Virus record (IMG/VR): IMGVR_UViG_3300036770_007495
Coordinates: 1-64,000 of that record
Length of the DNA stretch: 64,000 nt
DNA from: a virus
Strand: one strand, 5' to 3'
The notes under the pieces were generated by a model. It was not told the DNA's origin and ran no database searches. It saw only the letters and a program-made list of their open reading frames with translations. Shown here one piece after another: positions 64-63,885 of the stretch. Both the position numbers and the translations under genes were made by a program. The stretch's first letter is position 1. Each line of letters starts with the position of its first letter.

Positions 64-726
64 TTAATGTCCAAAAGCTTCAATGGTATACTTGAAAGGA
101 TTGCCTTCAATGTTTTTGACAAGATCAAGCATAGTTGCAGCAATGTCACGAATTTCTTTCTGTGCATCTGGCTTGTTGCGAAGCTCCAAGAAATGATGAA
201 AAGAGCGCCAGTTGAACATCACATCTGCCTGAATCTGAGAATTGTAGGTCTTGAAGAAACGAGCAGATTCTTTTGCGCGTTTGCGACCTAATACAGGTTC
301 AAGGTCTTTGAGACATTTGTGGTAAAGATTGTTGCCTAGTTCTGTATATTTTTTCAGAATATCACGCCAATATTCACAATCCCCTTCTTCCCAAATAGAA
401 GTTGAACTCTCTATACCTTCCCAATCATCAGGAATATAAAACTTATCTTCTTTCAGTTCTTTGTACCTAGCACTTTCGCCATTGATTGAAACGCCAATCC
501 GATGCTTAAGAAGGTGAATGTGAGAAGCAATGTCGCAATCCACAAGGAAATGCAGGCTGCTTTTTTCGAAAGGGGTATGGTGTCCATGTTGTGCTAGCAT
601 TTTGAGCAGCGCAGGAATGCGACTGCGTTTTTCTTCCGTGATGTCTCTGCTGGTGGATGTCCATGCAGAGCATGCATGCACTTCATCATTTCCGTAAAAT
701 CCAATGAGTTCAACTTTGTTTGTCAT
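64..726 (-). CDS. thyX: FAD-dependent thymidylate synthase ThyX
   Basis: The 220-residue protein converts dUMP to dTMP using methylene-tetrahydrofolate and FAD, supplying thymidylate for phage replication. The ThyX signature is visible as K-H-R-I-G-V-S-I-N-G-E-S-A-R-Y at about residues 74-88 (family form R-H-R-x7-S-x-R-Y), and H-H-T-P-F-E near residue 50 is the usual upstream motif. The first Arg of the RHR motif is Lys here. Length is normal for the family. It belongs to a minus-strand run with 3-nt gaps to its neighbours, so it is probably one operon member. Confidence 0.93.
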   Translation of the reverse strand: MTNKVELIGFYGNDEVHACSAWTSTSRDITEEKRSRIPALLKMLAQHGHHTPFEKSSLHFLVDCDIASHIHLLKHRIGVSINGESARYKELKEDKFYIPDDWEGIESSTSIWEEGDCEYWRDILKKYTELGNNLYHKCLKDLEPVLGRKRAKESARFFKTYNSQIQADVMFNWRSFHHFLELRNKPDAQKEIRDIAATMLDLVKNIEGNPFKYTIEAFGH

Positions 727-729
727 AAA

Positions 730-1326
730 TTAGGTCCACATGTATTCGCGATAGTCAATCATCTGCTTGATGATGTTTGTATCAGTTGCATCAATGAGAG
801 CTTCAATTCGATTGACCTCGCTGTACAATTCATCATAACTTTTGCCGCGAAGGCGTTCAGGAAGAGGATGAGGTGGATAAGCATTCATCATCAGTTCTAC
901 CAAATTGGGACGACCCTCTTTGATCCAAATTGCACTTGTGTCAAGCCAATTTTTGAACTTGCGATGATTATCAGTACCATCCCAATCAACACAAGATTCA
1001 TCAGCTTCTCTCTTAAAAGAAAGAATCATAGCAAAATTGACATCAATGATGAGATTGCTTACATCAGCCCATTGACGAGGAACAGCCTTGCGAATATCAG
1101 AATGATATGGCTTGAAGAAACACTTGATAGCATACTTGGTGTCACGATACATGTGACGGCAAGAGTATTGAAAATCACCAATTAGTTCACGCAAAAAATA
1201 TTGAACAGGGTAGTCCTTCTTTACTTGCTCACGCCAATCATGCCATGCATCCAGAGATGCAACACGAGGAATTTTGTACCAGAGAGGTTTCTTCATAGAA
1301 TCTTTACTATACAGTCTGTTGCTCAT
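730..1326 (-). CDS. hypothetical protein, 198 aa
   Basis: I do not recognise this protein. It is rich in Trp, Tyr, Arg and Lys, has no membrane segment or signal peptide, and carries a central region (residues about 85-135) with S-N-L-I-I-D-V-N-F-A-M followed by C-V-D-W-D-G. It sits 3 nt from both thyX and the HNH gene, so it is probably translated from the same transcript. A soluble protein is the most that can be said. Confidence 0.7.
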   Translation of the reverse strand: MSNRLYSKDSMKKPLWYKIPRVASLDAWHDWREQVKKDYPVQYFLRELIGDFQYSCRHMYRDTKYAIKCFFKPYHSDIRKAVPRQWADVSNLIIDVNFAMILSFKREADESCVDWDGTDNHRKFKNWLDTSAIWIKEGRPNLVELMMNAYPPHPLPERLRGKSYDELYSEVNRIEALIDATDTNIIKQMIDYREYMWT

Positions 1327-15388: not shown

Positions 15389-16855
15389 ATGAACATCAAT
15401 CCTGCATCTCTCATTGACGGCTACAAAGTCGGCCACATTCATCAGTATCCCAAGAATACTGAAATCATCTTCAGCAATTTGACAGCACGTTCCACCCGCC
15501 GTCTCAACACTGACAAGGTGGTTTTCGCAGGCCTGCAGTACTTCGTCAAAGAGTACCTCATCAAGCAGTGGAATGAAAACTTCTTCCACAAGCCCATTGA
15601 AGAAGTCGTTCACAAGTTCAATCGTCGCATCAACAATTACATTGTACCTAACAATGTTGGTGATCAGCACATTCGCGACCTGCACGAGCTTGGCTATCTG
15701 CCAATTGTAATTCTTGCTCTGCCAGAAGGCACTGAACATCCCATCAAGGTGCCAAGCCTTGTCATCTGGAATACAGATGAGCGCTTTGGTTGGCTCACCA
15801 ATTATCTGGAGACCATTCTGTCCACCAGCATCTGGGGCCCTTGCACCAGCGCCACTACTGCTCACCAGTACAAAAAGTTGCTCATGAAGTATGCTGCAGA
15901 GACTGTTGGTGATACCAGCTTTGTTCAGTGGCAGGGTCATGACTTCAGCTTCCGTGGCATGTATGGTCTTGAAGCTGCTTGCATGAGTGGCGCTACTCAC
16001 CTCTTCAGCTTCACGGGCACTGACACTGTTCCTGCTATCGACTTCCTTGAACAGTACTACAATGCTGACAGCGAGAAGGAACTTGTTGGTGGCAGCGTTG
16101 CTGCAACTGAACACAGCGTCATGTGCGCTGGTGGTGCTGACAATGAGATTGGCACTTTCCGTCGTCTGATTCATGATGTGTATCCGACTGGCATTGTGTC
16201 CATTGTGAGTGACACTTGGGACTACTGGAACACCATCACCAACATTGCTCGCGAGCTCAAGGATGAAATCATGCATCGTGATGGCAAGGTTGTCTTCCGC
16301 CCCGATACTGGGGATCCAGTCAGGGTTGTCATTGGTGATGAAGATGCTGCAAAAGATTCACCTGAATATAAAGGCTCCATTGAATGTCTTTGGGAGGTCT
16401 TTGGCGGCAAGGTGAACGCCAAGGGCTACAAGGAGCTTGATCCGCATGTGGGTCTCATCTATGGTGACAGCATCACGCTGGAACGTGCTCAGCAGATCTG
16501 TGAAGGTCTCAAGCGCAAGGGCTTTGCCAGCACCAACATTGTGTTTGGCGTTGGTAGCTACACTTACCAGTATGTGACTCGTGACACTGATGGCTATGCA
16601 GTCAAGGCAACCTATGCCAAGATTGATGGTCAGGATAAGGAAATCTTCAAGTCTCCCAAGGGTGCTGCATTCAAGAAGAGTGCCAAGGGTCTGACTGCTG
16701 TCTTCAAGGATGCTGATGGTGAGTTCTACCTCAAGGATCAGGCCACTTGGGATGAAGTTCACAACTGCGAATTCGTTGAAGTGTTTGCTGATGGTCATGT
16801 CGTCAAGGATTATACTCTGCAGGAAGTTCGCAACAACCTGGCTCAATACGTCTAA
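15389..16855 (+). CDS. nadV: nicotinamide phosphoribosyltransferase (NadV/NAMPT family)
   Basis: The 488-residue protein matches NAMPT in length and motifs: N-P-A-S-L-I-D-G-Y-K at the start, H-D-F-S-F-R-G-M, L-F-S-F-T-G-T-D-T, A-T-E-H-S-V-M, and the R-P-D-T-G-D-P loop. NAMPT joins nicotinamide and PRPP to NMN, feeding NAD synthesis. Many large phages carry it. Together with the PRPP-synthetase-like gene it would rebuild NAD, either as metabolism or against NAD-depleting defence. Codon use is more GC-rich than its neighbours, as for a well-expressed gene. Confidence 0.95.
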   Translation: MNINPASLIDGYKVGHIHQYPKNTEIIFSNLTARSTRRLNTDKVVFAGLQYFVKEYLIKQWNENFFHKPIEEVVHKFNRRINNYIVPNNVGDQHIRDLHELGYLPIVILALPEGTEHPIKVPSLVIWNTDERFGWLTNYLETILSTSIWGPCTSATTAHQYKKLLMKYAAETVGDTSFVQWQGHDFSFRGMYGLEAACMSGATHLFSFTGTDTVPAIDFLEQYYNADSEKELVGGSVAATEHSVMCAGGADNEIGTFRRLIHDVYPTGIVSIVSDTWDYWNTITNIARELKDEIMHRDGKVVFRPDTGDPVRVVIGDEDAAKDSPEYKGSIECLWEVFGGKVNAKGYKELDPHVGLIYGDSITLERAQQICEGLKRKGFASTNIVFGVGSYTYQYVTRDTDGYAVKATYAKIDGQDKEIFKSPKGAAFKKSAKGLTAVFKDADGEFYLKDQATWDEVHNCEFVEVFADGHVVKDYTLQEVRNNLAQYV

Positions 16856-58612: not shown

Positions 58613-59056
58613 GGGGGCGAACTGGCTTCGACTCAATTGGTTGATTCAGATTCGCATGCAGAGGTAGACTAGCTGGCCTCTATAAAAGCAAGTCAAAAAA
58701 CATAAACGCAGAAGACACTGAAGTCGATGCCCTCTTGGCGCAAGCTGAGTACATCTTCAACAATGCTGACGAATTCCTCGTCAACGAAGTTGAAATGGCA
58801 CTCGCTGCCTAAGCAAAAACAATGTTGGATCCTATTAAAAACATTGAGGCAAGCAATAGGTGGAGCTGAACAATGTATGCTCTTAAATCAAACATTGGGG
58901 TGATGTCAGACTCTTCACTGACATAGGTAGGCTCTAAAACTCAGGTTGATGCGCCATGCAAACCTTTTGCCAATGAAATTGCAAATGCATCCAAGCATGT
59001 AGACGGTTTGATGATGTTGATTGAACACAGGGGTTCGACTCCCCTCGCCTCCACCA
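58613..59056 (+). ncRNA. ssrA: tmRNA (transfer-messenger RNA)
   Basis: The ends fold as an alanyl tRNA-like domain: GGGGGCG pairs with CGCCTCC, T-arm AGGGG-TTCGACT-CCCCT, discriminator A and encoded CCA. Conserved tmRNA words are present (CTGGCTTCGAC, ATGCAGAGG, TGGCCTCTATAAAAGCAAGTC). The resume codon is probably GCA at 58708; the tag frame runs 58708-58809 and ends at TAA, giving about 34 residues that start A-E-D-T-E-V-D and end M-A-L-A-A. This rescues stalled ribosomes and tags the protein for proteolysis. Confidence 0.93.
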
Positions 59057-61649: not shown

Positions 61650-61983
61650 CATGAACGTTGATCTCACATGCAGCAAACCAATTAGCGAGGGGCACCAAGT
61701 GTCCGCGCTCGGTTGCATGTGGCCTGATTATCCGTCCTTGCAACGAAATCGATTTTCAAGATAATTGAAAAAAGAAGTTGAAGGAACAGAGATAGAGGGT
61801 ATTGTAGATACATAACAACAACGGTTCATGACGAGGGATGACCACAACAGCCCAAGAGTTCGCAGAATGCGACGTTCAGCCAAAAGCTGCCAGTGTAGTA
61901 AAGTATTGAAATGAAGCAAAGTGGGTTAGTAGTGCACAAGCACGAGGCTTCCCGGGTAGCCCCAAAAGCCACGATTTTCAAAA
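61650..61983 (+). ncRNA. structured RNA at the head of the tRNA array
   Basis: CACATGCA (61665) pairs with TGCATGTG (61714) and encloses a nested AGCG/CGCT, GCAC/GTGT stem, giving a long hairpin. Further short hairpins follow to 61975. No open frame is convincing. It may be a large phage ncRNA (GOLLD- or ROOL-like RNAs occur beside phage tRNAs) or the processed leader of the array; I cannot assign a family. Confidence 0.45.
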
Positions 61984-62058
61984 GGCTGCTTAGCTGAGAT
62001 AGATTAGCGTCTGCCTGAAGAGCAGAAAAGACTGGAGCGTTACCAGTAGCAGCCACCA
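61984..62058 (+). tRNA. tRNA-Phe(GAA), non-standard T-loop
   Basis: Acceptor GGCTGCT/AGCAGCC, D-stem GCT/AGC, anticodon arm TCTGC-CTGAAGA-GCAGA, T-arm ACTGG-AGCGTTA-CCAGT, ACCA. The T-loop lacks the usual TTC-R-A. Confidence 0.85.
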
Positions 62059-62062
62059 TTTC

Positions 62063-62151
62063 GGGACCTGCCCCCATCAGCGGACTGTAAATCCGTTGCC
62101 ATTAATAAGATGGGAAGTTGGCAAGTGGTGCGTTACCACCAGGGCCCACCA
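62063..62151 (+). tRNA. tRNA-Tyr(GTA)-like gene without a normal D-arm
   Basis: Acceptor GGGACCT/AGGGCCC (one A-G mismatch), anticodon arm GCGGA-CTGTAAA-TCCGT, T-arm AGTGG-TGCGTTA-CCACC, ACCA. Only about 10 nt lie between acceptor and anticodon stem, so no D-arm forms; CCCATC (62073) can instead pair with GATGGG (62109), enclosing the anticodon arm. TTGCCA/TGGCAA offers a competing variable arm. Confidence 0.6.
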
Positions 62152-62306
62152 TTTCAAGTTGGAGATGACGCGCTGTGTTGTCTTTAAAACGCTAACCAAC
62201 AAGAACAAACTAGTAATGCCGCTAGTATATACAAAGGCAGTCCTCATCACCTTATGGTGCTGATATGGCTTCTTTTTCCGTGAGCCCGTTAATCACGGAA
62301 TATTTT
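62152..62306 (+). other. 155-nt structured spacer in the tRNA array
   Basis: GTTGG...CCAAC encloses one domain, CTAG/CTAG a small hairpin, and TTCCGTGA-GCCCGTTAA-TCACGGAA is a strong 8-bp hairpin near the 3' end. No gene or recognisable tRNA. Possibly a small RNA or processing signals. Confidence 0.45.
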
Positions 62307-62732: not shown

Positions 62733-62934
62733 ATTTTGCGGAGCAGAAATGCTAGTGTGCGGCCGAAAGACTGATGATGCGGCGTTTCGGGTAAAACCTC
62801 GCGATCATCTCGCAAATTTAGATGTGGGTGAAAGTCCCAGAAGCATCACAGATGCTTGTTCCACGACGGGCTCTAAAGACTTGAACTGACAAGTGCAAGG
62901 GTGAGTGTAAAGGTACTCCCCACAAATTTCAAAT
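62733..62934 (+). other. 202-nt structured spacer in the tRNA array
   Basis: Several stems are visible: AGCA/TGCT, GCGA/TCGC, GGG-TGAAAGT-CCC and AAGCATC-ACA-GATGCTT. The short open frame across it shows no codon bias. Not recognised; may be another array-associated RNA. Confidence 0.45.
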
Positions 62935-63009
62935 GCGGTGTAGATGTTAATGGCTGCACACCTGACTTCCAATCAGAAGGAGGGGGTTCGATTCCCCCAC
63001 ACCGCACCA
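62935..63009 (+). tRNA. tRNA-Gly(TCC)
   Basis: Acceptor GCGGTGT/ACACCGC, anticodon loop CTTCCAA within CTGA/TCAG, T-arm GGGGG-TTCGATT-CCCCC, ACCA. Confidence 0.92.
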
Positions 63010-63013
63010 ATTT

Positions 63014-63234
63014 TATCAGAAGGAAGTTGGCTTAGAAGCAGCCATCTATAATGAGTGAAGCGAAGTACGAGTCTCCAACATCAACGGCCTAGTAAGGTGA
63101 CTGTGATAATGCATGATGTATCAGAGTCAGATATTGGCTCATGCGTTGGATATCGTCTGACTGCGGATAGTAAAAGAGCACCCCGTAAATGGTAAGGCTT
63201 AATTCTTCTTAGGCGTAACAGCACACCTCTGATA
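63014..63234 (+). ncRNA. RNA mimic of the 23S rRNA GTPase-associated centre
   Basis: TTGGCTTAGAAGCAGCCATC (63027-63046) is identical to the universal 23S helix-43 sequence (E. coli about 1060-1079, includes A1067). GCGTAACAGC (63213-63222) then ACAC matches helix 44 (about 1091-1104, includes A1095). The outer stem TATCAGA/TCTGATA replaces helix 42. Where 23S has about 11 nt between the two elements, this RNA has an insertion of about 165 nt. In the ribosome this region binds protein L11 and touches EF-G and RelA. It lies between two tRNA genes. Confidence 0.75.
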
Positions 63235-63242
63235 TATTTTAA

Positions 63243-63336
63243 GGATCCATGACAGAGCCTGGTATTGTACGTCCCTGCTAAGGACAGGTCAGCCCCTAAA
63301 AAGGCTGCGTAGGTTCAAATCCTACTGGATCCGCCA
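63243..63336 (+). tRNA. tRNA-Ser(GCT)
   Basis: Acceptor GGATCCA/TGGATCC, anticodon loop CTGCTAA within GTCC/GGAC, long variable arm CAGCC/GGCTG, canonical T-arm GTAGG-TTCAAAT-CCTAC, GCCA. Confidence 0.9.
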
Positions 63337-63808: not shown

Positions 63809-63885
63809 CGGGTGGTGTCTGGACAAGTAAACGAACTCGGTTTGGAGTCGAGTAAATGTGGGAGCGTTACCCACTCACCCGACCA
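63809..63885 (+). tRNA. tRNA-Pro(TGG), second copy with non-standard T-loop
   Basis: Acceptor CGGGTGG/TCACCCG, anticodon arm CTCGG-TTTGGAG-TCGAG, T-arm GTGGG-AGCGTTA-CCCAC, ACCA. The D-arm is weak and lacks the usual GG. It duplicates the anticodon of 62656 but shares the odd T-loop with tRNA-Phe. Confidence 0.78.

Follow-up and report, generated by a model that had tools for sequence, protein, structure and literature searches.

A phage RNA family that resembles the L11-binding domain of 23S rRNA

Results

The DNA analyzed here (the window) comprises positions 1–64,000 of the virus record IMGVR_UViG_3300036770_007495, which is 224,703 bp long. A tRNA array begins near position 61980 of the window and includes, on the plus strand, tRNA-Gly (TCC) at 62935–63009 and tRNA-Ser (GCT) at 63243–63336. 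Between these two genes, and on the same strand, lies the sequence of an RNA at 63014–63234, where a sequence-only reading had placed it. Other parts of the array were seen as well. The stretch 61984–62152 holds a tRNA-Phe gene found by Rfam only and a tRNA-Tyr-like gene recognized by eye; both have divergent T-arms and were missed by ARAGORN. Another tRNA-like stretch ends near 63885. Approximately 200 nt between tRNA-Pro and tRNA-Gly (62733–62934) have no Rfam match, and the first 57–87 nt of this stretch recur with 88–94% identity in loci L078 (twice), L022 and L029; it is possibly a further RNA of the same array without a name. The window also encodes a tmRNA (58613–59056) with the tag peptide GAEQCMLLNQTLG, a phage-encoded gene type common in large tRNA-bearing phages generally, and a nicotinamide phosphoribosyltransferase of NAD salvage (PHROG 448; 15389–16855).

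From 5' to 3', the RNA consists of TATCAGA, AGGAA, GTTGGCTTAGAAGCAGCCATC, TATAATGAGT, a 152-nt insert, TTAG, GCGTAACAGCACAC, C and TCTGATA. The 5' strand of the closing stem P1 (63014–63023) comprises TATCAGA at 63014–63020 and the equivalents of G1055 and G1056 at 63022–63023. Its partner is TCTGATA at 63228–63234, within the 3' strand (63227–63234); the 7-bp stem proposed earlier is thus present, and the equivalent columns covary strongly among 125 non-redundant copies. The helix 43 equivalent (1057–1079; 63024–63046) carries the thiostrepton-loop equivalent UUAGAAGC. Within it, GTTGGCTTAGAAGCAGCCATC (63026–63046) is identical to 1059–1079 of E. coli-type 23S rRNA over 21 nt, one more than the 20 nt first reported. 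The equivalent of the junction of the GTPase-associated centre (GAC), TATAATGAGT (1082–1090; 63047–63056), includes the A1082-U1086 pair, A1085 and G1087-A1088-G1089-U1090. The helix 44 apical loop and 3' strand equivalent, GCGTAACAGCACAC (1091–1104; 63213–63226), contains a family-specific A1101. It matches the E. coli form at 12 of 14 positions and 23S genes with C1097 at 13 of 14, so that the 13-of-14 copy described previously holds for the latter and not for the former. Both the A1067 and A1095 equivalents are A. Since TATAATGAGT, which the sequence-only reading overlooked, belongs to the GAC junction, the true insert is 63057–63208, between positions 1090 and 1091; an insert does exist, and its length is approximately 152 nt, not 165 nt. 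It is closed by GAAG (63057–63060) and CTTC (63205–63208). The window RNA therefore contains the complete L11-binding domain of 23S rRNA, beyond the two motifs. The 3' motif occurs a single time in the virus record. The single-sequence fold is unremarkable (z = -0.86) and uninformative, so support for the structure is comparative.

IMG/VR was scanned three times, with the 5' motif, the 3' motif and a variant, and more than 200 distinct copies were parsed altogether. The 5'-motif and 3'-motif scans, which are independent, converge on one two-part RNA. The exact helix-43 18-mer was found in 117 IMG/VR stretches. A complete 23S gene accounted for just one of the matches read; almost all others were the GAC-mimic RNA, with GGnnG-18mer-UCnn(U)UUAANGAGU as the usual context. 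The helix-44 part follows 73–370 nt downstream of the 18-mer in nearly all non-23S matches. Seven 18-mer matches (L027, L045, L046, L061, L012, L003 and L111) have no second half and are probably chance or partial occurrences, and matches in Paenibacillus phage Pd_22F and several short named "phage" records are owed to true 23S content. The 3'-motif-only scan of IMG/VR returned at least 120 viral stretches, and the helix-43 part lies upstream of the motif in nearly all of the viral matches listed. Bacterial and archaeal genomes totaling 257 Gb contain the 3' motif in just 35 stretches, about half of which are members, mostly from metagenome bins. Isolate contigs with members are those of Flintibacter muris (L229) and strain D16-76 (L234), and phage-type genes adjoin the RNA in both.

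Named phages with both halves, cultured phages among them, are Cronobacter GAP32, Pectobacterium CBB, Erwinia SNUABM_12 and Kaldavass, Acinetobacter ME3, Xanthomonas XacN1 and XaC1, Pseudomonas pf16, UNO-G1W1 and Milchi, and Aeromonas 4_4572; in Vibrio 2.275.O the 3' half is divergent. The RNA sits in an annotation gap in most named phages, which in pf16 is the one separating tRNA-Asn from tRNA-Pro, and short hypothetical ORFs have been called across it in Milchi, Kaldavass and UNO-G1W1. The exact 3' motif is absent from all 25 control large tRNA-bearing phages, indicating that the RNA is widespread, yet not universal. As judged from the independent scans and not from a formal E-value, the matches occur far beyond chance. 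The window RNA is a member of a widespread phage RNA family, without earlier annotation, in phages of several bacterial phyla.

Covariation was assessed in 125 non-redundant copies (differing by more than 15%) from 159 parsed copies, and every varying helix of the GAC (E. coli 1051–1108) covaries. The variable columns of P1 (1047–1055 with 1104–1112) are 75–96% paired, with all pair types, compared to approximately 40% in shuffles; shuffles ignore kinship, a concern lessened by filtering at 85% identity, by counting all four pair types and by a register test. The outer H43 pair 1058-1080 covaries (GC 47, TA 37, AT 26, CG 4), as does the unusual 1082-1086 pair (TA 62, CG 32, AT 17), and pairing as in 23S is also seen at 1057-1081, 1062-1076 and 1064-1074. 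At the base of the insert, the first three pairs are standard in 125, 122 and 112 of the 125 copies, with full covariation, and pairing vanishes once the register slides by one column. Corrected mutual information over all column pairs ranks P1, H43, 1082-1086 and the insert base highest, followed by a coordinated 1056-(1082-1086) change; it revealed no tertiary covariation among loop bases 1061, 1068, 1070 and 1096. The H44 pairs 1089–1092/1099–1102 are almost invariant, so support for H44 comes mainly from a switch at 1092-1099. A1085 and GAGU are invariant in all 159 parsed copies, although GAGU is itself part of the parsing pattern. U1060, A1085, A1088, G1093 and A1098 are invariant both in the phage copies and in a 23S panel of 39 distinct GACs from three phyla and a few others.

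Conn, Gutell and Draper are said to have described, in 1998, rRNA positions 1072, 1092 and 1099 as a base triple with two isoforms. One copy, L195, combines U1092-A1099 with U1072, which prompted the prediction that U1092-A1099 copies carry U1072. After the prediction was set down, such copies were sought by the 3' half only. U1072 was present in 54 of 56 unique two-part matches and C in two, one of which (L362) is a false alignment, giving 54 of 55. C1072 was present in 157 of 158 copies with C1092-G1099. The concordance has a Fisher p of ~2e-48, where the counts are sequences and not independent events. The first 18-mer scan fixed C1072, whereas the 3'-motif scan left C1072 free and had the same outcome. 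Two close relatives, Kaldavass of Erwinia and an IMG/VR phage of 371 kb, have near-identical RNAs except for the triple switch and a few loop bases. The concordant isoforms indicate that the fold includes GAC tertiary structure; judged by these comparisons of sequence, the phage RNA keeps GAC tertiary constraints. The proposal that this is a phage RNA copying the L11/GTPase-associated centre is thus upheld by more than 200 copies in which the helices and one tertiary triple covary. The conserved pairing that the sequence-only reading had named as a check is found in related phages, and the random or decaying rRNA scrap that it had held against itself is contradicted by the same data.

The phage RNA shares with the 23S GAC (H43-H44, E. 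coli 1051–1108) the three-way junction, invariant core bases, the 1072.(1092-1099) triple and the 1082-1086 pair. Unlike the 23S GAC, it is free-standing, with a private closing stem, an insert at 1090/1091 and A1101 in place of U1101. A1101 is found in 159 of 159 phage copies, and the insert is present in all, so that H44 is not continuous. The phage RNA is relaxed at 1056, 1061, 1067, 1068, 1070 and 1096. Of 159 copies, 15 (9%) have a changed A1067, 21 a changed G1068 and 29 a changed A1070, whereas 1068 and 1070 are invariant in the 23S panel. The kept A1067 and A1095 of the sequence-only reading therefore hold for the window and, across the family, for A1095 (158 of 159) better than for A1067 (144 of 159; G in 11). 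A1067 contacts the elbow of the A/R-tRNA and determines thiostrepton resistance (PMC5829649). Its variation in 9% of copies means that the conserved part fits an L11-bound core better than a decoy of factor or drug contacts. G1089-U1090 is found even in enterobacterial phages, while enterobacterial 23S has A1089-A1090, indicating that the phage copies were not taken recently from the host.

Each phage has a P1 of its own, and in nearly all copies this stem replaces helix 42, the L10-binding helix. When members were compared to 23S by blast, the core alone matched, except in three copies that extend into H42 only. L017, L375 and L388 retain 23S H42 strands (AAGACARCCAGG / CACTGGYCGA), a hint of origin from 23S, and by sequence these copies are possible evolutionary intermediates. 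Since H42 beyond the junction, the L10 site, is normally uncopied, the mimicry is L11-specific.

The insert ranges from 36 to 364 nt. Among 131 non-redundant inserts, no domain is common to all and motifs are confined to sub-groups. GGTAAGG is present in 28 of the 131, compared to a maximum of 10 for any 7-mer in shuffled sequences. GGCACCCCGUAANUGGUAAGGCU is found in about one-sixth of inserts, including that of the window, where the corresponding sub-motif GCACCCCGTAAATGGTAAGGCT spans 63178–63199; other inserts share CCUUAGAG. L078, a relative, has the tRNA-Ser flank and P1 5' strand of the window RNA with a different insert and an unchanged core, indicating a constant core and a modular insert.

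Where a tRNA gene lies within 500 nt, the copy is always on the strand of that gene (106 of 106); 58 of 194 loci lack a tRNA, frequently on account of their short length. Beside the RNA in 11 named phages are tRNAs or genes of other kinds, none of them for an r-protein. A terminator of its own is not a family trait, since 15 of 210 downstream regions have one compared to 12 of 210 random stretches; in L017 and L388 the RNA is followed by a hairpin and a run of T, which by eye look like a terminator. The lack of terminator enrichment, together with the shared strand in 106 of 106 copies, suggests that most copies are probably processed from tRNA-array transcripts. A phage-encoded partner was considered and rejected, as no L11 or RelA/SpoT is encoded in 41 carrier records. 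The synthetic lethality of uL11 depletion and ssrA loss (PMC8373112) had suggested a link to phage tmRNA, which was rejected because tmRNA scores over the cut-off in 13 of 41 carriers, yet also in 10 of 25 controls that lack the RNA. Carrier loci have further features of their own. ARAGORN calls a tRNA-Pyl (CTA anticodon) in L009, L034 and L112, a probable amber suppressor that hints at recoded phages. RNA ligase/polynucleotide kinase and 2'-5' RNA ligase genes adjoin the RNA in L229 (2522–4714) and L243 (828–1478), two unrelated phages, which may be a coincidence. L016 has a GOLLD RNA (685–1176, minus strand) in the same tRNA-rich locus as its copy.

Discussion

To our knowledge, uL11 is the only protein conserved across bacteria that recognizes the GAC core. 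Because the partner of the RNA must be present bacteria-wide and recognize this core, uL11 is the expected partner, and we consider it probable that the RNA binds uL11. The explanation that best accounts for the sequence data, and to which we give about equal belief and doubt, is that the RNA is an autonomous L11-binding domain, rebuilt as a free-standing phage RNA, that binds and withholds or redirects host uL11. The RNA would in most cases probably be co-transcribed with phage tRNAs, and it folds like the GAC, as the helix and tertiary covariation shows. Host uL11 would be bound by the GAC-like RNA and then withheld or redirected, leaving translation during infection to ribosomes in which uL11 function is depleted or altered. 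Judging from the known roles of uL11, the likeliest gain would be weaker uL11-dependent signaling, such as RelA activation and RqcH recruitment. The variable insert could add a phage-specific function or stabilize the complex. Passages of PMC7058999 that cite Parker 1976, Wendrich 2002 and Shyp 2012 describe uL11 as essential for RelA activation in E. coli, RqcH is recruited by uL11 (PMC8373112), and RNA decoys are a known phage strategy, as in the Racrs (PMC10651486). That sequestration of uL11 is the purpose of the RNA is a somewhat weaker proposition, held at a little less than even weight. The universal U1101A and the insert at 1090/1091 could change how uL11 binds or prevent it from binding, sequestration must require an amount of RNA approaching that of free uL11, and the ever-present variable insert suggests a role beyond that of a uL11 sponge.

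The alternative that survives best, although considerably less probable than a uL11-withholding RNA, is that the GAC core acts as a handle by which uL11 or the ribosomal stalk is docked onto a ribonucleoprotein in which the variable insert does the work. The constant presence, broad size range and high diversity of the insert are consistent with such a scaffold, as are the exchange of the insert in L078 while the core stays and the co-occurrence with GOLLD in the array of L016, ribosome binding by GOLLD having been reported from pull-downs (PMC12286853). The inserts, however, have no universal motif. Slightly less probable is a decoy for another agent that acts at the GAC: RelA, EF-G or another translational GTPase, a thiopeptide, or a defense enzyme that modifies or cleaves rRNA. 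Most copies retain A at the loop positions equivalent to 1067 and 1095, as such a decoy would have it, and EF-G binds isolated thiostrepton-domain RNA (Munishkin and Wool 1997, in the citing statement of PMC5829649). However, it is the tertiary core that is kept, whereas A1067, G1068 and A1070 are altered at the frequencies given above. We also know of no nuclease that cleaves the GAC, which counts against this alternative.

It is very unlikely that the RNA is a cis-regulatory element of a neighboring gene or of tRNA processing. Its frequent position within tRNA operons, on the same strand, would suit this role, but the neighbors vary among phages with no constant downstream gene, and the conserved part is a protein-binding rRNA domain, not a switch. 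Scarcely more credit, and if anything a little less, can be given to an exchangeable piece of a phage-modified ribosome, the altered-ribosome building block also raised by the sequence-only reading. The rRNA-like H42 strands of L017, L375 and L388 are in its favor, but it is otherwise without support, since private closing stems replace H42 in nearly all copies, all have the insert, and a separate GAC would need to replace a covalent part of 23S. Finally, an rRNA fragment caught by chance and now decaying, as the 21-nt identity to 23S might suggest, is refuted by the covariation of every variable helix and the tertiary triple, and is further opposed by G1089-U1090 in enterobacterial phages despite A1089-A1090 in host 23S and by A1101 in all copies where 23S has U.

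The sequence-only reading knew of no named phage RNA of this kind, and none emerged here: no Rfam 15 family scored above its gathering cut-off for the window RNA and 20 further loci, and no such RNA was found in the open-access literature, although it may have been mentioned elsewhere. The nearest known systems each share one aspect. Leader RNAs of r-protein mRNAs that mimic rRNA (e.g., the L10 leader, RF00557) are likewise RNA copies of a ribosomal-protein site, but they are bacterial and act in cis on r-protein mRNAs, whereas the GAC-mimic RNA is found in phages and outside r-protein operons. The ornate phage RNAs GOLLD and ROOL are also structured and often near tRNA islands (PMC12286853); their fold and size are unrelated, and the Rfam GOLLD match in L016 is a separate element. 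OLE RNA, proposed to sequester the ribosomal protein RpsU (PMC12286853), is similar in that respect, but is bacterial and large and lacks a GAC core. Racr RNA anti-CRISPRs (PMC10651486) are phage-encoded decoys that mimic a host RNA, but their target is CRISPR-Cas and not the ribosome, and their sequence and fold are unrelated. The RNA is categorically new in that no viral or cellular RNA is recorded as a free-standing rebuilt GAC; it would be less novel if any phage RNA decoy were counted as the same kind. We know of no earlier viral RNA family that rebuilds a ribosomal functional centre as a separate molecule.

The family adds a defined member to the unexplained RNAs of phage tRNA arrays, provides a natural series of GAC variants for work on RNA tertiary structure, and makes it possible to test directly what phages do with the stringent response and with translation factors. 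RNA-based control of RelA is also suggested, provided that the partner is uL11. In its most far-reaching form, which we put forward tentatively as a doubtful proposition, large phages would deprive their hosts of uL11 by means of a GAC-shaped RNA whose effector domain can be exchanged, and both the stringent response and ribosome quality control would be weakened during infection as a result. If true, the RNA would be a weapon against a ribosomal protein that works by mimicry of a functional centre of 23S rRNA.
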